A DNA stretch of 64,000 nt from a virus: positions 1 to 64,000 of the IMG/VR virus record IMGVR_UViG_3300042503_001430. One strand, 5' to 3'. Shown piece by piece: positions 1,417 through 57,818 of this stretch. Position 1 is the stretch's first letter; the number at the start of each line of letters is the position of its first letter. A program made the position numbers and the translations under genes. The notes under the pieces were generated by a model. It made no database searches, had not been told where the DNA came from, and saw only the letters and a program-made list of their open reading frames with translations.

Positions 1417-1848
1417 ATGAAACTTGAAGAAATTGAAGCTCTCTGGGAACAAGACGTAAAGATCGATAGAACAGATCTCGATTCTGAGAGTCTTAAAATA
1501 CCCACCCTTCATCAGAAATACTACAAGCTATACCTGAGAGAGAAGGTGCAATTAAAAGCTGAAGAACAAGCGTATAAGCAGTTTTACAAGCTCAAGCACG
1601 AGTACTACACAGGTAAGATGTCAAAGAGCGAATTGGATGAATATGGATGGGAACCATTTCAATTCGTACTCAAGAACGATCTTCAAGTCTACATGGAAGC
1701 AGACAAAGAGATTGCAGAGCGATTGCTCAAGATGAGCGTACAGAAAGAGAAGGTACAATTCTTAGAAGACATCATCAAGACTCTCAACACCCGTGGTTTC
1801 CTAATCAAAAATGCGATAGACTACATTCGATGGACTAATGGTAATTAA
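1417..1848 (+). CDS. uvsY: UvsY recombination mediator
   Basis: A protein of 143 residues (T4 UvsY is 137). It aligns by eye along the whole length: an N-terminal MKLEEIEALWEQDVKID matching T4 MRLEDLQEELKKDVFID, a central helix with KLKHEYYTG matching ARLDYYSG, and a C-terminal LNTRGFLIKNAIDYIRW matching IKSRGFAIKHIQDMRAF. UvsY loads UvsX recombinase on gp32-coated single-stranded DNA. The position next to uvsW is as in T4. The 3' end overlaps the antisense homing endonuclease gene by 14 bases. Confidence 0.9.
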   Translation: MKLEEIEALWEQDVKIDRTDLDSESLKIPTLHQKYYKLYLREKVQLKAEEQAYKQFYKLKHEYYTGKMSKSELDEYGWEPFQFVLKNDLQVYMEADKEIAERLLKMSVQKEKVQFLEDIIKTLNTRGFLIKNAIDYIRWTNGN

Positions 1849-2539
1849 AACTATAGTGTTTGTATTTTCCAGTTCTTTGAATTGACATATACACAGCACT
1901 GTATTTGTATCCTTTCATTTCACACCACAGCTTCAATGATTTTGGTCGCTCTTTGGCGTTATTTGTGTTGTCTAGTATTTCTACAGGGCGTATTGTCGAT
2001 CTTTTGATTCCGGCTTGAGCTTTAGATATGTTTGCTCTTCCAATTTCACTTCTTTTCTTACCTCTCATCGTCATGGACATCTTTAACTTAGTCTCTTCCG
2101 AGTGGCGCCTACCCTTTTGAGAAAGACTCATCTTTAACCGAGTTTCTTCTGTATGTTTATATCCAAGAGATGATTTGTTTCCCATATTTGCTTGGGATAT
2201 TTTTCTCTTAGTCTCTTCTTTATGTTTGTATCCTAGAAGACCATCACCACCTTGTGTCATGTTATATCCATTCGTATATTGTGTCTGATACTTTTCTATC
2301 AACACCATCTCATGCCGTTTGGCTTCGACCTCATCATTAGTCTCCAAAACTATTTCCCATAACCACTCTTCGGGTTTGTATTTCCTCAATGCTCTGTGGA
2401 ATAGTAGCTGGCTGTTATGTTTCGCTGCATGATAGTGGTAGTATTGTCTTTGCTGTAGAGTTAGAGATGATATTCCAACATACCTCTTTTTGGTAGTAGT
2501 GTTGGTGACAAGATACACTATGGTATTGTGAGGTGACAT
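1835..2539 (-). CDS. GIY-YIG homing endonuclease (Seg-like) with NUMOD3 repeats
   Basis: The N-terminal GIY-YIG nuclease fold is seen as VYLV (7-11), then RYVGIS (19-24), an arginine at about 31 and a glutamate-containing helix (EAKRHEMVLIEKYQ). A tail of repeated NUMOD3-type DNA-binding modules follows (HKEETKRKIS, HTEETRLKMS, HSEETKLKMS), then an IENR-like C-terminus. This layout is typical of freestanding T4 Seg enzymes. The start is placed at ATG 2539; a GTG at 2551 is possible. It is antisense to its neighbours and separates uvsY from uvsW, which are close together in T4, so it is very likely a mobile insertion. Confidence 0.88.
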   Translation of the reverse strand: MSPHNTIVYLVTNTTTKKRYVGISSLTLQQRQYYHYHAAKHNSQLLFHRALRKYKPEEWLWEIVLETNDEVEAKRHEMVLIEKYQTQYTNGYNMTQGGDGLLGYKHKEETKRKISQANMGNKSSLGYKHTEETRLKMSLSQKGRRHSEETKLKMSMTMRGKKRSEIGRANISKAQAGIKRSTIRPVEILDNTNNAKERPKSLKLWCEMKGYKYSAVYMSIQRTGKYKHYSFNYH

Positions 2540-2593
2540 ACTATCACTCACATTTATAAGAGTTCTCTATCAAAACCAGCATCTTTTTTAGCA

Positions 2594-2631: not shown

Positions 2632-4107
2632 ATGGAGAAAATCGTACTAACCAAAATCAATGAAGTTTACTTTCAGCTTTCTTGCGATTCGGGTATCGCA
2701 CGTGAGGTGTCAGAGTTCTTTAGCTTCTTTGTACCTGGTTACAAGTTCATGCCAGCATACAAGATGAGAATGTGGGACGGTAAACTTCGTCTCTTCAATC
2801 TCATGAACTACACCCTCTACATTGGCTTACTCGACTACTTGAAAGAATTCTGTAGGTCTCGCTCATATACCCTTGAGGTAGACCCAAAATTGGTTGAGAA
2901 GAATCAGTTCTCGTTAGACGATACAAAAGCTTTTCTTGAATCGTTAGAGCTTCCATTTGAAGCAAGAGACTATCAGGCACAAGCAATTCAAAACGCAATT
3001 CAGACCAATCGAACACTGCTCTTGTCGCCGACTGGTTCTGGCAAATCACTGATAATCTATGCACTAGCACGATACTACAACCGAAAGACACTAATAATAG
3101 TACCCACCATATCGCTTGTTTCACAAATGTTCTCCGATTTCAAAGAGTATGCTAAAAACCAATCGACGTTCTCTGTCGATAAAACATGTCACCCAATATA
3201 CAGCGGACAAGAAAAAATCACAAACAAAAAAGTCGTCATCTCAACATGGCAATCGATATACAAACTACCGAAAGAATGGTTTGCACAATTCGATGTCGTC
3301 ATCGGTGACGAAGTGCATCTGTTCAAAGCAAAGTCGCTCACTGGTATCATGTCTAAGCTTGAAAATACAAAGTATAGATTCGGTACAACAGGCACACTAG
3401 ATGGAACACAAACACACAAGCTAGTGTTAGAAGGACTTTTCGGTAGAACATTCTCAGTAACCACTACAAAAAAATTGATCGAGAAGAAACAGCTTGCTGA
3501 TTTGAAAATCGAGTGTGTTGTTCTCAAGTATGATCCGAGTGTATGCAAGCAGATTAAGAAAGTCAAGTATAATGATGAAATAAAATTTCTTGTTGAAAAT
3601 CAGAAACGAAACAACTTCATCAGAAACCTTGCAGTCAACACAAAATCGAATTGTCTCGTGCTTTTTCAATTTGTCGATTCTCACGGAAAAATACTCTACG
3701 AGATGATCAAAGAAAAGGCACACAGCATAGATCCAAACAGAAAGGTGTTCTTCGTTTCTGGACAAACAGACGCTGACACACGAGAAGAGATCAGAAACAT
3801 TACCGAGAACGAGCGTAATGCAATCATCGTCGCATCGACAGGTGTGTTCAGTACGGGTGTGAACATTCGTAATCTGGAGAACATCATCTTCGCATCACCA
3901 ACCAAGTCGAGAATCAAAACACTTCAATCGATTGGTCGTACACTTCGTATTGGAGATCACTCAGACAAAGCAACACTCTATGACATCGTAGATGATCTAA
4001 CCGACAAGTCTTACAAGAATTTTGCGGTGAAGCACTTCTTAGAGCGAGTGAAGATTTACAATGAAGAGAAGTTCAAATACAAGCTCCACAAGGTGAATTT
4101 GTTCTAG
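2632..4107 (+). CDS. uvsW: UvsW RNA-DNA/DNA helicase
   Basis: 491 residues, close to T4 UvsW (about 500). The N-terminal domain contains FFSFFVPGYKF and MWDGKLRLF, as in T4 (FFSFEADGYRF, NWDGRIRLL). Helicase motifs follow: Walker A SPTGSGKS at 132-139, motif II DEVH at 226-229, motif III GTTGTL, motif V STGVFSTGVNI and motif VI SIGRTLR. UvsW unwinds R-loops and branched DNA and switches origin-dependent to recombination-dependent replication. A late-promoter-like element precedes it, in keeping with late expression of T4 uvsW. Confidence 0.95.
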   Translation: MEKIVLTKINEVYFQLSCDSGIAREVSEFFSFFVPGYKFMPAYKMRMWDGKLRLFNLMNYTLYIGLLDYLKEFCRSRSYTLEVDPKLVEKNQFSLDDTKAFLESLELPFEARDYQAQAIQNAIQTNRTLLLSPTGSGKSLIIYALARYYNRKTLIIVPTISLVSQMFSDFKEYAKNQSTFSVDKTCHPIYSGQEKITNKKVVISTWQSIYKLPKEWFAQFDVVIGDEVHLFKAKSLTGIMSKLENTKYRFGTTGTLDGTQTHKLVLEGLFGRTFSVTTTKKLIEKKQLADLKIECVVLKYDPSVCKQIKKVKYNDEIKFLVENQKRNNFIRNLAVNTKSNCLVLFQFVDSHGKILYEMIKEKAHSIDPNRKVFFVSGQTDADTREEIRNITENERNAIIVASTGVFSTGVNIRNLENIIFASPTKSRIKTLQSIGRTLRIGDHSDKATLYDIVDDLTDKSYKNFAVKHFLERVKIYNEEKFKYKLHKVNLF

Positions 4108-4135: not shown

Positions 4136-4582
4136 ATGTCAACACCAAGTCTCAAAGTTATCAAGTTAGTCTCAGGTGACGAAATCATCGGGGTTGTGCA
4201 AGATGGAGCAACCGAAACAAATACTGATGATGGATACACTCTCGACAATCTGCTATTCGTGACAAATCCAATGAAGGTGGTTTCTGAGTATGATCCAACA
4301 GCGAAGGTTCATGCACTCTACCTCATCGATTGGATTCCTGCAATTAGAGACACGACACTGCCACTCGACAAGCAGCGAGTGATTACACTTGGTGATCCAA
4401 ACAAGAATCTTGAAGCACACTACATCGATCTCGTTCTCATGGACAAACTCTACGAACAACTCACCGAAGCTGAGTCAACTGGTGACATCGAAGATGATCT
4501 TTCACCAGAAGAGCGTGTTGAGAAGCACAAGTTGAGCGAGAAGCTTAAAAAGCACAAATTCGAAGACGACGACATACAATAA
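4136..4582 (+). CDS. Conserved phage protein with Sm-like N-terminal motif (paralogue of 19929-20234)
   Basis: 148 residues. The N-terminal pattern SLKVIKLVSGDEIIGVV ... NPMKVV resembles small beta-barrel (Sm/Hfq-like) hypothetical proteins of T4-like marine phages. A second copy of the pattern (ITRLLTGEEILGEV ... NPTLV) occurs in the protein at 19929-20234. The C-terminal third is highly charged (EDDLSPEERVEKHKLSEKLKKHKFEDDD split into acid and basic runs). An RNA-binding role is only an inference from the motif. Expressed from a late-type promoter. Confidence 0.55.
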   Translation: MSTPSLKVIKLVSGDEIIGVVQDGATETNTDDGYTLDNLLFVTNPMKVVSEYDPTAKVHALYLIDWIPAIRDTTLPLDKQRVITLGDPNKNLEAHYIDLVLMDKLYEQLTEAESTGDIEDDLSPEERVEKHKLSEKLKKHKFEDDDIQ

Positions 4583-20304: not shown

Positions 20305-21768
20305 ATGTCACATCAAAAGTTCTATACGAATTGCACCTGTGTTGGTAACAACATTTTGTATCGTGGTGTAGAAAACGGCGAGCGTGTCTCAAGAAAGTTC
20401 ACCGTTCAGCCTACCCTATTCTTACCCTCATCGAAACCTACCAAGTACAAGACTCTCGACGGTAGGTATGCTGACAAGATCAAGTTCGGTGACATCGGTG
20501 AAGCTAAAGAGTTCGTGAGGCGGTATGAGGGTGTAGACAACTTCGTATATTTCGGTAACACCAAGTACCACTACGTATATCTCGGCGATGAGTTTCCTGA
20601 GTATGTTGACTATGACATGTCTGAGATAGTCATCGCAAACATCGATATTGAGGTTGCGTCTGAGGGTGGTTTTGCCCCACCTGAAAATCCTACTGAAGAG
20701 GTAATTGCGATAACTGTTGAGAGTAAGGGTACGTATGTCGTTTTTGGCTGTGGTGATTTCACAACTAAAGAAGATTCAATCAAGTACATTCGCTGTAAGA
20801 ATGAAGTTGATTTGTTACAACGCTTCATGGAGCATTGGGAACATATTGCTCCGGATGTTGTAACTGGTTGGAACATTCAGTTCTACGATATACCTTACCT
20901 CGTGAATCGTATCTCGAAGGTGTTTGGTGATAAAGAAGCGAAGCGTCTTTCACCTTGGCGATACCTCTCTACCCGCAAAGCTTACTACAAGGGTCGTCAT
21001 CAAGTCGCTGTTGAGCTTGTGGGTGTATCAACCCTCGACTACATGGAGATGTACCGAAAGTTTCAACCGAAGCAAGAGAGTGAGAAGCTGAACTACATCG
21101 CTTATGTTGAGCTTGGTGAGAAGAAAATCTCATACGAAGAGTACGATTCGCTTCACTCTCTGTACAAGAACAACTACCAGAAGTTCATCGAGTATAACAT
21201 CAAAGACGTAGAGCTTATCAAGAAGCTCGAAGAGAAGCTGAAGCTGATCGAGATGTGTTGTGCACTTGCGTATGATGCACGAGTAAACTTCACTGATGTG
21301 TTTGCACAGGTTCGTATGTGGGACACAATCATTTACAACGATCTCAAGAAGAAAAACATCGTGCTGCCTCGCCTCAGTGATAATGAGAAAGATACCGAGT
21401 ACGCTGGTGCTTACGTTAAAGAGGTGACGCCTGGTATGTATGAGTGGGTCGTTTCGTTCGACTTGAACTCTCTGTACCCAAATCTGATTGCACAGTTCAA
21501 CATCTCACCTGAGTGTTTGGTGACTGACAAGTATCGACAGGTCAATATCAAGTCTCTTCTCAATCGAGAGTTTGATACCTCATCACTGAAGTCTGAAGGT
21601 GTGAGTCTCGCTGCAAATGGTCACTGCTTCAACAATGATCGTATCGGGTTCTTACCCGACATTCTGATGCGAATGTACGAAGACAGAAAGACCTACAAGA
21701 AGAAGATGATCGAAGCGCAGAAAGAGCTTGAGCGTGTCAAAGAAGAGCTTCATCGAAGGGGTCTGTAG
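20305..21768 (+). CDS. 43A: DNA polymerase gp43, N-terminal part (43A: exonuclease and palm)
   Basis: 487 residues, family B. The 3'-5' exonuclease motifs are ExoI DIE (Asp114-Glu116), ExoII with WNIQFYDIPYL and ExoIII YNIKDVELI. Polymerase motif A is DLNSLYP (Asp386). The protein then stops after a charged helix (QKELERVKEELHRRGL) in the fingers region, before motifs B and C. These lie in a separate gene at 22894-24000. Together the two make a complete T4-like polymerase. The break point is similar to the split gp43 known from some Aeromonas T4-like phages. Confidence 0.93.
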   Translation: MSHQKFYTNCTCVGNNILYRGVENGERVSRKFTVQPTLFLPSSKPTKYKTLDGRYADKIKFGDIGEAKEFVRRYEGVDNFVYFGNTKYHYVYLGDEFPEYVDYDMSEIVIANIDIEVASEGGFAPPENPTEEVIAITVESKGTYVVFGCGDFTTKEDSIKYIRCKNEVDLLQRFMEHWEHIAPDVVTGWNIQFYDIPYLVNRISKVFGDKEAKRLSPWRYLSTRKAYYKGRHQVAVELVGVSTLDYMEMYRKFQPKQESEKLNYIAYVELGEKKISYEEYDSLHSLYKNNYQKFIEYNIKDVELIKKLEEKLKLIEMCCALAYDARVNFTDVFAQVRMWDTIIYNDLKKKNIVLPRLSDNEKDTEYAGAYVKEVTPGMYEWVVSFDLNSLYPNLIAQFNISPECLVTDKYRQVNIKSLLNREFDTSSLKSEGVSLAANGHCFNNDRIGFLPDILMRMYEDRKTYKKKMIEAQKELERVKEELHRRGL

Positions 21769-21784
21769 TAAATTTCGGGTTATT

Positions 21785-22399
21785 ATGTTGCGTGTCAAAG
21801 ATTTGCCAAGAAAGGTGCAGAGAAAAGTTGCCATCATCAACAAGGTTCTGTCACGATACCCTACGTTCAGTTTCTCTCTTGAGCAACTGAGAGGTGTTGA
21901 GGATATAAACTACAAGATGTTTCTTGAGTTTGTAGAGCAGCCGCACATCATAGGTGGTAAACCTCGTGTACATACGATTAAGTATGAGCACCTGATTTAT
22001 AGGGGGTTCAACACAAAGTCTGACTTGTATGACACCACACTATACCTTGCAATTTTCAGAAATGTTCGAACGAACATGATTCATCCCAAGATCGGTACCA
22101 CCAAATCATACAAAGCTAAGAACCGTTTCTACAAAACATCTAAGCTGTGGCAGTTCTGTGGGTTCTTGTGGTGTAAGACCGGACCACGAAATGAGATTCT
22201 TGCTATTGAGAAACAACTCAAACAGCTTATTCGACGCCATGATATTGCAGCAAAAGATGTGATCGACTTCAATTTTGGTGGGCAAACAGAGCTTATGATT
22301 CCATCGGTCGATATATCACATATCATATGGGATGAAATTCGCCGCATCTTCAACAATCACAACTTTGAAGACCTGAATTATCACGAATGTTCTTTATGA
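21785..22399 (+). CDS. Putative GIY-YIG/T5orf172-like nuclease inserted in the polymerase locus
   Basis: 204 residues. The central segment LYLAIFRNVRTN ... HPKIGTTKSYKAKNRF ... NEILAIEKQLKQLIRR resembles the T5orf172 branch of GIY-YIG nucleases: a GIY-like strand (LYLAIF), a KIG in place of YIG, a following Arg and a catalytic-type Glu in AIEKQL. The gene lies exactly between the two polymerase halves, the place where homing endonucleases are found in other split gp43 loci. The family call is tentative. It ends with an ATGA overlap with the dCMP deaminase gene. Confidence 0.5.
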   Translation: MLRVKDLPRKVQRKVAIINKVLSRYPTFSFSLEQLRGVEDINYKMFLEFVEQPHIIGGKPRVHTIKYEHLIYRGFNTKSDLYDTTLYLAIFRNVRTNMIHPKIGTTKSYKAKNRFYKTSKLWQFCGFLWCKTGPRNEILAIEKQLKQLIRRHDIAAKDVIDFNFGGQTELMIPSVDISHIIWDEIRRIFNNHNFEDLNYHECSL

Positions 22400-22884
22400 G
22401 TATAAGCTGGCACCAATACTTCATGGGTATTGCTCTTCTCGCTGCACAGAGAAGTAAAGACCCAAGTACACAGGTCGGTTCGTGTATTGTGACACCCGAC
22501 AACAGAGTTATTGGCATAGGGTGGAACGGTATGCCGAAATGCTCTCACTGGTTGAATAACGATTCACTCTTGCCGTGGGGTAAAGAGTCCGAGAATCCAT
22601 TAGAGAACAAGTACATGTATGTTGTGCACTCTGAGCCAAATGCGATCTTTCATGCTTCAGAAAGTGTTAGAGGTTGCACGATGTATTTGACGTGGTTTCC
22701 ATGTAGTGAGTGTGCGAAAGCAATCGTGCAATCTGGAATATCGAAGCTCGTTTACCTCCACGAACATACGACTGATCGCTATCGAGAGAGTATGGAAGGT
22801 GCTCGCATCATGTTTGATTCTTCTGGCGTGGCTTACGAAAAATACTCTCACAATAAAGATGACATTCTTCTCAAATTCGAGTAG
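22396..22884 (+). CDS. cd: dCMP deaminase
   Basis: 162 residues. Zinc-dependent cytidine/deoxycytidylate deaminase motifs: HSEPNAIFHA (HxE) and WFPCSECAKAI (PCxxC). The N-terminus SWHQYFMGIALLAAQRSKDPSTQVG is typical of dCMP deaminases (only the SKDPSTQVG core is needed for recognition). It makes dUMP for thymidylate synthesis. Translation is probably coupled to the upstream gene through ATGA; an ATG at 22387 is also in frame. Its location between the polymerase halves is unusual. Confidence 0.92.
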   Translation: MSISWHQYFMGIALLAAQRSKDPSTQVGSCIVTPDNRVIGIGWNGMPKCSHWLNNDSLLPWGKESENPLENKYMYVVHSEPNAIFHASESVRGCTMYLTWFPCSECAKAIVQSGISKLVYLHEHTTDRYRESMEGARIMFDSSGVAYEKYSHNKDDILLKFE

Positions 22885-22893
22885 ACTACAAAC

Positions 22894-24000
22894 ATGCAAG
22901 ATTTGTCAAAACTCTCTGATGCTGAGTTAAAAGCATACGCTCGAAAACTATCATTCGATATTTCGAAGTACCACAACTTTCAGTTGACCAAAAAGATTCA
23001 GTTGAACTCAGCGTATGGTGCGATGGGTAATCAGTACTTTCGTTTCTATGATATTCGACTTGCAGAAGCGGTGACACTTTCTGGTCAGCTTGTCATTCAG
23101 TGGATTGCAAAAGACATCAACGCATATCTGAACAATCTGCTCAAAACATCATCGGTCGATTATGTTATTGCTATCGACACTGACTCGATTTACCTCAACC
23201 TCAAGAATCTCGTCACGACTGCGTATGGTGACAAGCTACCTGATGACAAAATCAAGATCGTAGACTTTCTCGATAAGGTTGCAAACACCAAGATTCAATC
23301 AATCATTGACAAGAGCTGCAAAGACCTTCGTGAATATCTGAACGCTCGCTCTCAGAAGATGCAAATGAAGCGTGAGTCAATCGCAGACAAAGCAATCTGG
23401 ACTGCAAAGAAGCGGTATATTCTTAACGTGTATGACAATGAGGGTGTGAGATATGAGACGCCGAAGCTCAAAATCCAAGGTATTGAAGCGGTCAAGTCGT
23501 CAACGCCAGAGGTTTGTCGCCAGAAAATTAAAGACGCAATCAACATCATCTTGACGAAATCGCAGACTGAGTTGCATCAGTACATCGATGGGTTCAAGTC
23601 TGAGTTTAAGAGTCTCAGTCCAGAGACGGTTGCGTTTCCTCGTGGGTGTAACGGAATATCTACCTACGCAGATAACAAAACCATTTTTGGTAAGGGTACT
23701 CCAATCCATGTGCGAGGTGCACTTGTCTACAACAAGTTAATCAAAGAAAAGAAGCTTGAGAAAAAATACCCTTGCATCCAAGAAGGTGACAAGATAAAAT
23801 TCTTGTACTTGAAGACACCGAATCACATTCAGCAAAATGTTATCACGATGTCAGAAAATGGTTTGCCACAAGAGTTGAACCTTCACAAGTACGTAGACTA
23901 CGAGCTTCAGTTCGAAAAAACTTTCTTGGACCCACTCAAGATTATTCTCGATGCGATAAATTGGTCTACCAAGAAAACGATGAGCTTTGACGATTTATAG
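22894..24000 (+). CDS. 43B: DNA polymerase gp43, C-terminal part (43B: fingers/palm/thumb)
   Basis: 368 residues. It begins with a helix (KLSDAELKAYARKLS) and continues into polymerase motif B KIQLNSAYG (34-42) and motif C DTDS (Asp95, Asp97), then the thumb. It starts with its own ATG, so the two parts must assemble as separate chains. The 1.1-kb gap to 43A is almost filled by two genes, leaving no room for a group I intron core, so splicing is unlikely. The C-terminal SFDDL may be a reduced clamp-binding tail. Confidence 0.93.
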   Translation: MQDLSKLSDAELKAYARKLSFDISKYHNFQLTKKIQLNSAYGAMGNQYFRFYDIRLAEAVTLSGQLVIQWIAKDINAYLNNLLKTSSVDYVIAIDTDSIYLNLKNLVTTAYGDKLPDDKIKIVDFLDKVANTKIQSIIDKSCKDLREYLNARSQKMQMKRESIADKAIWTAKKRYILNVYDNEGVRYETPKLKIQGIEAVKSSTPEVCRQKIKDAINIILTKSQTELHQYIDGFKSEFKSLSPETVAFPRGCNGISTYADNKTIFGKGTPIHVRGALVYNKLIKEKKLEKKYPCIQEGDKIKFLYLKTPNHIQQNVITMSENGLPQELNLHKYVDYELQFEKTFLDPLKIILDAINWSTKKTMSFDDL

Positions 24001-55180: not shown

Positions 55181-55568
55181 GGGCCTGCGTAGTTTCGACA
55201 AGCTGTAGGAACTAGCCTCTCCCACAACACGATGATGGTTCTTGGCATCGTAATAAATGAACCACCGTTTAAGTGCAAACTTCAACGACTCTGCTTACGC
55301 CTTAGCTGCATAAGCCGTGGTGTGTAACTGTTCTGCTAGTTACGTTACACACTGCGAAACTCAAACTAGCGGTGCTCACGGATAACCGTTCGTAACGTGA
55401 GGGTAAAACCTAATCTTGGAGCGGGAATAGTGGCTACCCACTACCGACATGACTTAGAGGTGTTTGATCTGTAAAGTCTGAGGTCTATTAATTGATCAAC
55501 CTATTGTTGTAAACGGAACTAGAGAACACAGCTTGAACAACGGGTGCGACTCCCGTTCAGGTCCACCA
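55181..55568 (+). ncRNA. ssrA: Phage-encoded transfer-messenger RNA (tmRNA)
   Basis: 388 bases. The 5' end GGGCCTG pairs with CAGGTCC (55558-55564), followed by discriminator A and CCA (55565-55568): a 7-bp acceptor stem. The T arm is ACGGG-TGCGACT-CCCGT. Near the 5' end TAGTTTCGAC corresponds to the conserved tmRNA D-loop region. The tag frame begins at GCA 55275 and reads ANFNDSAYALAA followed by TAA (55311-55313), ending in the canonical YALAA degron. It is one-piece, with its own promoter. It would rescue stalled ribosomes and tag products for ClpXP, perhaps suited to phage-modified translation. Confidence 0.95.
55275..55313 (+). other. tmRNA tag reading frame (ANFNDSAYALAA)
   Basis: Twelve codons and a TAA stop inside the tmRNA. 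With the alanine from the charged tmRNA the tag would be AANFNDSAYALAA. The N-terminal part differs from the common ANDENYALAA; the C-terminal YALAA recognised by ClpX is kept. Confidence 0.92.
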
Positions 55569-55587: not shown

Positions 55588-55677
55588 GGGTTTGTCACTA
55601 GGAAGTGTTTTTACCGTTTCCTGCTGCGAATCTGACTCCGAAGCGGAACGGTGCCAGGAGTTAGAAGTGACAAGCCC
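55588..55677 (+). ncRNA. Three-way-junction RNA element with a kissing loop
   Basis: Closing helix P1: 55588-55599 with 55666-55677 (GGGTTTGTCACT/AGTGACAAGCCC, 12 bp, one G-U). P2: AGGAA (55600-55604) with TTCCT (55618-55622). P3: TCTGACTCC (55631-55639) with GGAGTTAGA (55657-55665), 9 bp with one G-U. The P2 loop ACCGT (55613-55617) is complementary to ACGGT (55648-55652) in the P3 loop. All unpaired junction bases are in one linker (55623-55630). The element starts at the predicted late transcription start and ends 11 bases before the next ATG. No known family recognised; a ribozyme, riboswitch-like leader or stabilising 5' cap are options. Confidence 0.72.
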
Positions 55678-55688
55678 ACTTGAATATT

Positions 55689-56543
55689 ATGAAAAACTTT
55701 TCAGAATTTCTAACAGAATCAATACTCGACCCCGAACAAGCTACCTTGTCGCCACAGGTGTTTGATGCAGACGGTACGAAGCTCAAGCCTGAAGTTCGCA
55801 CTCAAATCATCGCAGGTATCTCGAAGCTTGCTGATAAAGCTAACGTGGTAGACTACACACTCATTGGTAGCATACTCACGAAGCGATATGCACCAGACTC
55901 AGATATTGATGTGAACATTCTTATCAACACCAAGCAGAGTCAGATTGATGATATTCGCTCGTTAGCTGTCAGTCTCAGTGGCAAAACCATCACCGGCACA
56001 AAACACCCAATCAACTACCACGTCTTAGCAGACAAAACAGATTTTGATAATGCAAACGAATCTGCTGATGGTGTGTTTGACATCAGCAACAATACGTTCA
56101 TACGAAAACCAACCGAAAAGCCATTTCACATCGAGAAGTACTTCGGTGAATTCAAGAATGTTGTCTCTAAGATTGACGCACTCAAAGACGATTTGAAAGA
56201 TGACTTGATTGACTACTCGGTGTTGAAAGCATTCTCAGAAGAAGACATGACGAACCTTCGCAAGATGATTGAGAAAGAGCTTGATGAGATTGAGAGTGAT
56301 GTGAAGGGTCTTTCTGCACTCTATGACAAAATCTGGAAAGACAGAAACGCAGGGTTTCAGAAGAAGCTTACGCCCAAAGAGATTCGAGAATATGGCACCA
56401 AGAATCGACTACCAGGTAATGTCATCTACAAGTTGCTTGAGCGTCACCACTACCTTCAATTTTTACATCAGGTAGAAGAGATTGTAGCAGACGGCAAAGT
56501 TTCTGAAAAAGAAGCTGATAAATTGATTGACATTGTTTTCTAG
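55689..56543 (+). CDS. Capsid-targeted Pol-beta-type nucleotidyltransferase
   Basis: 284 residues. Tag MKNFSEFLTE at 1-10. At 58-78 the minimal nucleotidyltransferase signature is LIGS (Gly60, Ser61) followed by SDIDVNILI (Asp72, Asp74). A third acidic residue could be in INYHVLADKTD. The C-terminal 130 residues are helical with ELDEIESDVKGL and a GKVSEKEADKLID end. Such enzymes modify RNA, tRNA or proteins (NMPylation). A head-packaged version could modify a host target on injection. Its mRNA begins with the three-way-junction RNA. Confidence 0.78.
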   Translation: MKNFSEFLTESILDPEQATLSPQVFDADGTKLKPEVRTQIIAGISKLADKANVVDYTLIGSILTKRYAPDSDIDVNILINTKQSQIDDIRSLAVSLSGKTITGTKHPINYHVLADKTDFDNANESADGVFDISNNTFIRKPTEKPFHIEKYFGEFKNVVSKIDALKDDLKDDLIDYSVLKAFSEEDMTNLRKMIEKELDEIESDVKGLSALYDKIWKDRNAGFQKKLTPKEIREYGTKNRLPGNVIYKLLERHHYLQFLHQVEEIVADGKVSEKEADKLIDIVF

Positions 56544-56554
56544 TGTGGTATCGT

Positions 56555-56767
56555 ATGTCGATGCGAATGGTATTTCCATTTTTAGTTGTGATTTCTATCT
56601 TTGTGGGTCTATTCTTGTTGGGTAGGTTCGCAACGAAAAAGCACATTAATACAATAAATTGCATTTCTATGTGTGGTGATGGTGTTTGTGGATACAACAT
56701 AATGTGTGAGTATCCACCCTGCGGGTGTTCAGAAAATGCTGTCGTATGTCCACGGGATTGTCATTAA
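56555..56767 (+). CDS. Small membrane protein with a Cys-rich CGDGxC module
   Basis: 70 residues from ATG 56555 (a GTG at 56543, overlapping the previous stop, would add four). One hydrophobic helix (VFPFLVVISIFVGLFLLG) is followed by CGDGVCGYNIMCEYPPCGCS and NAVVCPRDC. The pattern CGDGxC ... CPxDC occurs in secreted calcium- or disulfide-stabilised modules. The Cys-rich part would lie outside the cytoplasm. Function unknown. Confidence 0.65.
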   Translation: MSMRMVFPFLVVISIFVGLFLLGRFATKKHINTINCISMCGDGVCGYNIMCEYPPCGCSENAVVCPRDCH

Positions 56768-56795: not shown

Positions 56796-56803
56796 GCTAA
56801 ATA
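56796..56803 (+). promoter_or_regulatory. T4-type late promoter (GCTAAATA) for the hammerhead RNA
   Basis: GCTAAATA is just upstream of the structured RNA region (predicted start about 56809). No protein gene follows on this strand for more than 1 kb, so it probably makes a noncoding transcript. Confidence 0.6.
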
Positions 56804-56808
56804 GTACG

Positions 56809-57008
56809 CATCAAAGTAGCAGCCCTACTTCGACCGACATGAAACTGGTAGCGCAATAAACGGTTTCTACCTTCGGAAGATTTAGGATTCTGGCTTTGTG
56901 TTATAAAGTCGCTCTGTCGAGCGCAAATGGAAAATTGAGCTATGGCGCATCTGCACCTGACGAGCCCAGAAGGGCGAAACAGAGCGTAGACACGGCAACT
57001 ATCGTGTC
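56809..57008 (+). ncRNA. Structured noncoding RNA containing a hammerhead ribozyme
   Basis: A 5' rod-like hairpin is built from CAAAG/CTTTG (56812-56816 with 56894-56898), CAG/CTG (56820-56822 with 56890-56892), CCTA/TAGG (56824-56827 with 56883-56886), CTTC/GAAG (56828-56831 with 56876-56879) and an inner GAAACTG/CGGTTTC (56841-56847 with 56861-56867). The hammerhead follows at 56910-56986. A 3' hairpin GACACG/CGTGTC (56989-56994 with 57003-57008) closes the region. No protein frame fits. The transcript then runs antisense into the nuclease gene. Confidence 0.65.
56910..56986 (+). ncRNA. Hammerhead ribozyme (type III topology)
   Basis: Core CUGACGA is at 56957-56963 and GAAA at 56976-56979. 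Stem II: GCCC (56964-56967) and GGGC (56972-56975), loop AGAA. Stem III: CGCTCTGT (56910-56917) with ACAGAGCG (56979-56986), 8 perfect pairs including the conserved A15.1-U16.1. The cleavage-site base is C56918 (GUC), with cutting between 56918 and 56919. Stem I (56919 onward with up to 56956) begins G-C but contains an A-A mismatch and a G-U, so it is the weakest part. Stem III is open, giving the type III arrangement. Confidence 0.78.
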
Positions 57009-57029
57009 ACCTCTGTAGTGCAGTACCTC

Positions 57030-57818
57030 TTAAAACGCCAACAGTATCGAATCTGCTTTCAAAGCTTTCTTATCAATGTCAGAACTAGACCCACTCTTGA
57101 GTGGTGCTATGTTGTAGGGTGACTTCTTTACCTTACCGAAATGCAACGTCATCACGAACTGATATGTACCAGAACCCTTCGCTTGACATCGAACTCGAAT
57201 GATAGCACTCGCAGATTTTGCAAAGTCTGGTATTGGTGGTAGGTTATTGTCTTTCAGTGTTTTATTCAGGTCGAGATCATCTCTGCCGTTGAGGGTGAAA
57301 AGGCCATGTGTTCCTATGTTGATGTATGAGCACTTCTTCTTGCTGTAGTATTCGCATATAACACTTGCTGGTACATCAATATGAATTTCGTTATCTGCTC
57401 CAAATTTTTTGATGTCTTTTTCGTATGCGTCTTGTGGCGACTTTGCACCCACAATCTTTTTGCTTCCGTCTTTCTCGTTTTGTAGACACGGAGTCTTTTT
57501 TCTCCAATTCTTTCCTTCTTCACCTCTGCTGTTCATTTGTTGAAGCAGGTTGAACTTTTCTCCGATTGCTTGTAAGAACTCTTTCTCAACATGACCTTTG
57601 TACTCGCCATAATCCCATTTACCATCGACGTACTTCATAACAAGAGAACCAGCAGCAGTGGGTGATATTTTCAATTCACACCCTGTCGTCTTTTTCTTTT
57701 TGGATATTGTGAGGTCTGGCTTATCTCTCGCTGCACCAGCAATTCCACCCGTGGATATTTTGTGCTCTTGTAACGCCTTGTATGCGTTCTCTTCGTATTC
57801 AAACCCTTTTTGAGCCAT
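57030..57818 (-). CDS. PD-(D/E)XK nuclease, probably mobile
   Basis: 262 residues on the minus strand. The catalytic pattern is DKPDLTI (Asp35) followed by GCELKIS (Glu48, Lys50). The rest (GAKSPQDAYEKDIKKFG, YSKKKCSYINIGTHGLFTL, SASAIIRVRCQAKG) resembles a family of freestanding nucleases in marine T4-like phages. Start ATG 57818 has GAGGAA upstream. Its orientation against all neighbours and its place next to noncoding RNA suggest a homing or selfish element. No target site recognised. Confidence 0.75.
   Translation of the reverse strand: MAQKGFEYEENAYKALQEHKISTGGIAGAARDKPDLTISKKKKTTGCELKISPTAAGSLVMKYVDGKWDYGEYKGHVEKEFLQAIGEKFNLLQQMNSRGEEGKNWRKKTPCLQNEKDGSKKIVGAKSPQDAYEKDIKKFGADNEIHIDVPASVICEYYSKKKCSYINIGTHGLFTLNGRDDLDLNKTLKDNNLPPIPDFAKSASAIIRVRCQAKGSGTYQFVMTLHFGKVKKSPYNIAPLKSGSSSDIDKKALKADSILLAF

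Follow-up and report, generated by a model that had tools for sequence, protein, structure and literature searches.

What does a hammerhead ribozyme do in the genome of a DNA virus, and to which RNA does it belong? The question arises in a 64,000-nt stretch of viral DNA (the window), where the initial annotation described a hammerhead core in a late noncoding transcript and modeled it as a type III ribozyme at 56910-56986 with a cut between 56918 and 56919. The motifs on which that model was built (CUGACGA at 56957-56963, GCCC-AGAA-GGGC at 56964-56975, and GAAA at 56976-56979) are present as read. The window does contain a hammerhead ribozyme, in another frame. Neither the type III architecture nor the proposed boundaries hold: judged from sequence, the element is a type I (CGS) hammerhead predicted to cleave itself between 57017 and 57018, and the ribozyme belongs to an element spanning 56797-57024. 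Relatives were found by searching viral contigs with a nearby DNA ligase; seven loci carry the same element (L014, L015, L017, L018, L020, L021, and L022), giving eight sequences with the window (alignment A1), all of them metagenomic viral contigs from one narrow viral clade. The parts of the ribozyme are as follows.

56951-56956, + strand: 5' strand of stem I, CUGCAC; pairs with 57018-57023 in all eight sequences, with one G-C to G-U change
56957-56963, + strand: core C3-A9, CUGACGA; CUGANGA in all eight, N7 being C or A
56964-56975, + strand: stem II, GCCC-AGAA-GGGC; 4 bp in all eight, loop variable
56976-56979, + strand: core G12 A13 A14 plus A15.1 (GAAA); unchanged in all eight
56979-57016, + strand: stem III plus its extension and loop; ACAGAG...CUCUGU, closed by a GACACGG hairpin
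57017-57018, + strand: predicted cleavage site between A17 and G1.1 (GUA/G); H17 is never G in the eight
57018-57023, + strand: 3' strand of stem I, GUGCAG; conservation of the locus ends about 1 base past it

The working partner strand (57011-57023) lies downstream of GAAA, beyond the segment originally delimited. It supplies six pairs to stem III, between ACAGAG (56979-56984) and CUCUGU (57011-57016), and six perfect pairs to stem I (CUGCAC:GUGCAG). The order of core, GAAA, and cleavage site with stem I open is the type I (CGS) arrangement. A script demanding the full core, stem II of at least 3 bp, stem III of at least 3 bp, and stem I of at least 4 bp found exactly one site in the window, in the type I frame; random sequence matched in dinucleotide composition gives 0.015 per 64 kb. 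Stem II has a pairing probability of 0.99 within the full RNA. The A-A mismatch reported earlier in stem I exists only in the type III frame and is gone here.

In the window genome alone, the type III frame is attractive. The octamer CGCUCUGU at 56910-56917 is exactly complementary to 56979-56986 and is followed by C56918 and G56919, so U16.1, C17, and G1.1 can all be assigned. These letters are correct, but they do not serve as stem III. The three core-proximal pairs fail in four, six, and four of the eight homologues; 68.8% of the alignment cells of this helix are paired, a value equalled or beaten by 85 of 500 shuffles; and in the full RNA its pairs have probabilities of no more than 0.001. 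The same frame reads stem I as G-C, A.A, G-C, C-G, and G.U, and its upstream strand proves to be the 5' arm and loop of a separate conserved hairpin (hairpin 2, below). A type III (SCG) arrangement, with the upstream strand as stem III and stem I closed, was not found. On the conservation, shuffle, and folding results, type III is rejected and type I stands, and a cut at 56918/56919 seems to us extremely improbable.

Hammerhead consensus criteria were taken from Perreault et al. (2011; PMC3088659). C3 U4 G5 A6 N7 G8 A9, G12 A13 A14 A15, U16, and H17 (A, C, C, A, C, C, U, A) are present in all eight sequences, and the core-adjacent pairs 1.1-2.1, 10.1-11.1, and 15.1-16.1 are intact in each. Stems I and II and the proximal part of stem III are 100% paired, with covariation. 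Stems I and II barely vary, so the covariation internal to the ribozyme rests on stem III. In L021 the proximal stem contains a compensatory change from A-U to G-C, and the distal stem varies radically among relatives (GUAGACACGG..., GUGAAUACGG..., GGUAGAUUACAGG..., GAUAUAUGG...), falling into three sequence and length classes that each refold to the same junction. Scored over A1 with the upstream hairpins included, the type I structure reaches 96.3% paired cells and shows two-sided changes at 13 pairs, as compared with 91.6% and 4.7 in shuffles; none of 500 shuffles reached either observed value, and slid control structures were 29-40% paired. Covariance in homologues exists for the type I frame. 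Unconstrained folding returned the exact three-way junction with an unpaired core in seven of the eight segments; the eighth, L021, departs by additional pairing at the core. Within the full RNA, the predicted probability of stem I is low in L015 (0.28) and L021 (0.10), both values coming from pseudoknot-free single-strand predictions.

The sequence of stem I, which catalysis does not require to be fixed, is unusually invariant, as might be expected if the three-way junction were real but catalytically dead and had been retained either for binding or to cap and stabilize the 3' end. Such a cap would need no CUGANGA, GAAA, or UH, however, and all eight sequences keep every catalytic base, including H17, as well as the cleavage-site strand, while stem III is freely rebuilt. 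A dead junction is accordingly a quite improbable account of the locus.

An Rfam search in sensitive mode matched Hammerhead_HH9 (RF02275) at 56941-57039 (E = 5e-5, 28.7 bits), and relatives L033, L036, and L031 were also matched (31.7, 26.9, and 23.4 bits). Searching with Rfam hammerhead models had been suggested for the type III frame; the family that was matched fits a different one. The four matching sequences, at 23-32 bits, stay below the HH9 gathering threshold of 52 bits, and the element is therefore classed, on the published core criteria, with the type I hammerheads rather than within HH9. With type I hammerheads, among which HH9 is the closest curated model, it shares the CUGANGA/GAAA/UH core, the stem order, a stem I open to the flanks and consisting of 6 bp followed by U-A, and a 4-bp stem II. 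A possible internal loop of stem I after these 6 bp, placed as in HH9, is a candidate for a loop I-loop II tertiary contact. Unlike HH9, it has a longer and variable stem III, and it ends a dedicated, conserved noncoding RNA of a T4-like virus.

As read from the aligned sequences, a conserved noncoding RNA of about 210 nt has the hammerhead at its 3' end; the remaining parts of this RNA are listed here.

56797-56805, + strand: late-type promoter, CTAAATAGT (TATATATAGT in six homologues)
56810-56900, + strand: 5' domain, one long irregular hairpin with a CAAAG:CUUUG base (RNAalifold and pair counts, eight sequences)
56910-56923, + strand: hairpin 2, CGCUC-UGUC-GAGCG; two pairs with two-sided changes, loop variable
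56937-56950, + strand: linker GAGCUAUGGCGC(A/U)U, lying before stem I; near-invariant in all eight, with few single-base differences

The order of promoter, 5' domain, and hammerhead is the same in all eight loci, and TA(T/A)ATAGT precedes the RNA at the same position in each. We take this box to resemble the late promoter of T4 and cyanophages, TATAAATA; CTAAATA is not enriched across the window overall. In helices 1-3 of the 5' domain, 10 pairs have changed on both sides, among them columns 39/78, where G-C becomes A-U, and columns 29/88 and 50/66, where U-A becomes C-G. Hairpin 2 reaches probabilities of up to about 0.5 in the full RNA of the window. The apical loop of the 5' domain, GGUAGCGCA..AAAC, is invariant, and together with the linker it suggests a tertiary contact or a binding partner. 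The GCGC of the linker could possibly pair with the GCGC of the 5' hairpin loop; because both elements are invariant, they offer no covariation by which this contact could be judged. No second site complementary to the linker, as a trans target, occurs in the window, and the 5' domain of the window matched no Rfam 15 family up to E = 10. The initial description of a hammerhead core in a late noncoding transcript was therefore right in substance, given the conserved core, the covariation in homologues, and the late-type promoter upstream.

A reading frame could in principle also be conserved at this position, for example AUGAGCUAUGGCGCUUCUGCACCUGACGAGCCC, and three variable bases do fall at third codon positions of a single frame. 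However, L022 has no start codon, two other sequences have UUG in its place, stop positions are not conserved, and the covarying stem III together with all the hammerhead bases explains the pattern better. That the conserved stretch is a short gene rather than an RNA structure is barely credible.

A more serious alternative is that the hammerhead is a processing site in a longer message, trimming the 3' UTR of the late gene upstream or splitting a polycistronic transcript, with the upstream structure acting only as a UTR stabilizer. Little sequence separates the end of the upstream gene from the element, no terminator was found, and phage and prophage hammerheads that flank genes have been proposed to process long transcripts (PMC3088659). 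In all eight loci, however, the promoter motif directly precedes the RNA; the upstream genes vary between genomes while the RNA is constant; and in L021 the RNA and the gene convergent with it are jointly inverted relative to the neighboring upstream genes. We regard processing of a longer message as unlikely.

Conservation of the locus has a sharp 3' boundary. Past GUGCAGU the eight sequences cease to resemble each other and unrelated genes begin, in the window the following one.

57030-57818, - strand: convergent gene, 262 aa, with a PD..ExK nuclease-like motif; its stop codon lies 6 nt past stem I

Selection has preserved sequence as far as the end of the stem I 3' strand but not past it, as a cleaved ribozyme would require and a fossil core would not. 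A convergent gene is found in seven of the eight genomes and ends 6, 12, 2, 4, 0, 0, and 0 nt beyond stem I; L018 lacks it and has kept the ribozyme. The convergent proteins (245-411 aa) have no significant whole-protein similarity to one another. The earlier reading of the window gene as an antisense nuclease is plausible, its PDL..ELK motif being invariant in six homologues, although its confidently predicted fold (pLDDT 88) had no significant counterpart among the solved structures of the PDB, nucleases included. The best viral fold matches are uncharacterized phage proteins, with one of Prochlorococcus phage P-SSM2 ranked first, and no convincing match of the convergent neighbor to a defense family was found. 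ATAAATA or CTAAATA lies 32-59 nt upstream of the start in six of the seven convergent genes (ATAAATA at 59 nt in the window), so both transcripts look late and head-on.

The site of the convergent gene is occupied by different genes in the window (57030-57818, - strand) and at the same position in L014, L015, L017, L020, L021, and L022, and is empty in L018, the pattern of a gene-swap hot spot. Several of the hot-spot proteins have a (P/T)D...(E/S)xK pattern, as judged by eye. Upstream of the convergent gene in L022 (2951-3520) a palindromic element, TGGTCCGGAATA...TATTCCGGACCA, occurs twice, about 90 nt apart. A dedicated partner protein for the RNA, as in a nuclease, toxin-antitoxin, or guide RNA system, was considered and is not favored: the neighbor differs in each virus, matches no defense family convincingly, and is missing from L018; the window gene also has relatives elsewhere that are not accompanied by the RNA.

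We consider it likely that the locus produces a late viral noncoding RNA of about 210 nt whose 3' end is matured by its own type I hammerhead. Transcription would start just past the late-type promoter, at about 56806, and the RNA would fold into the 5' hairpin domain, the small second hairpin, the invariant linker, and the hammerhead. The ribozyme would then cut between A57017 and G57018, giving the RNA, at about 210 nt, a defined 3' end (a 2',3'-cyclic phosphate) and releasing the remainder of the read-through transcript, which would begin at G57018 with GUGCAGUAC. Because only 0-12 nt lie between the ribozyme and the end of the convergent gene, and the surroundings of the element showed no terminator-like site, cutting would also detach the RNA from any read-through that runs antisense to that gene. 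Such insulation cannot be the sole role, since L018 has the ribozyme without an opposing gene; in our view the defined 3' end would be the primary role and insulation a consequence.

Hammerhead cleavage leaves 2',3'-cyclic phosphate and 5'-OH ends that can be ligated. The hammerhead might on this basis serve to make ends for ligation, with the RNA or part of it circularized, or the cut reversible, as in retrozyme and viroid-like RNAs, and in the window two candidate cleavage-site strands do flank the core. The upstream candidate is not conserved, however, and each record holds a single ribozyme copy, hence no tandem array from which a circle could be excised. We judge this role very improbable. 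Maturation of a linear 3' end remains the preferred reading. A broader proposal, which we advance tentatively and at slightly less than even confidence, is that the cleaved RNA acts in trans, as a member of a new late noncoding RNA family of T4-like, cyanophage-like viruses that obtains its functional 3' end from an embedded hammerhead, and that the ribozyme end marks a hot spot for swapping nuclease-like genes.

Hammerheads have been known in phages and bacteria for more than a decade, and the present element offers a concrete system for asking about their role. Perreault et al. (2011; PMC3088659) describe phage and prophage examples, among them hammerheads flanking ardA in Agrobacterium and those of PaP3 and Bcep176. 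The element shares with these an intergenic location in a phage. As described there, the earlier examples lie near integrase or variable genes and have no conserved noncoding RNA domain attached, whereas the eight viruses of the present clade inherit the domain and the ribozyme together, as a unit. In this element a specific, conserved, promoter-driven noncoding RNA comes with the ribozyme, whose end coincides with the end of conservation, so that a definite role, 3'-end maturation, becomes directly testable; if correct, this would be among the first cases of a phage hammerhead maturing a specific noncoding RNA. An almost fixed stem I of 5-6 bp is also found in the HRIMA-1 type-SGC hammerheads (PMC10085705), which have a non-circular permutation and pseudoknots, whereas the element has the ordinary CGS order.

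Hammerheads also occur in an unrelated viral contig (L011, with the same arrangement in L013), at 3505-3562 and 4367-4454 on the + strand, about 0.87 kb apart; one is type III-like (RF00008) and the other RAGATH-1-hammerhead-like. The two cases share the presence of hammerheads in a DNA virus; L011/L013 differs in being another virus with two ribozymes of different types and no common noncoding RNA domain. This pair may excise the intervening RNA.

Two covariance models, R1 for the 5' domain and R2 for the ribozyme, match exactly the same eight viruses. Neither gave anything convincing in six isolate Synechococcus phages, or in loci where a relative of the convergent gene, or a more distant ligase, is encoded; weak matches in phages B23 and S-8S56 are at chance level, and the one in B23 has no CUGANGA core. 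Of 55 loci that encode a relative of the upstream nucleotidyltransferase, only L050 was matched, which is the L022 contig again. Blastn against phages gave no match with the window region as query and chance-level matches only with the L015 RNA, and a pattern scan of genome contigs gave none. Pattern matches in L034, L037, and L012 were rejected, as they lie inside unrelated sequence and do not have this structure. Within the range of these searches, the RNA is confined to the clade. The nearest named relatives of the viral ssDNA-binding protein are in freshwater and marine Synechococcus T4-like phages (S-SRM01, 60% identity), and the virus is T4-like and probably infects cyanobacteria.

Several other features of the window were recorded. 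A virus-encoded tmRNA at 55181-55568 (+ strand; RF00023, 62.6 bits, above gathering) was missed by ARAGORN and is also present in relatives L035, L030, L021, and L036 (61-75 bits). Just 3' of it, at 55595-55670 (+ strand), is an sRNA of the CyVA-1 family (RF02965, 43.6 bits), also found in L032, L035, and L030, the last slightly below gathering. The family B DNA polymerase gene (20305-24000, + strand) looks split into frames of 487 and 368 aa separated by about 1.1 kb that holds a 223-aa ORF, perhaps a mobile gene insertion or a naturally split polymerase. An ORF at 1835-2551 (- strand) resembles, by eye, a GIY-YIG homing endonuclease with repeated NUMOD-like motifs. At 56543-56767 (+ strand) lies a gene for a Cys-rich membrane protein of 70-75 aa (...CGDGxC...CPxDC...), also present in L015, L018, and L020; it is conserved in the region, and its position relative to the nucleotidyltransferase gene varies.
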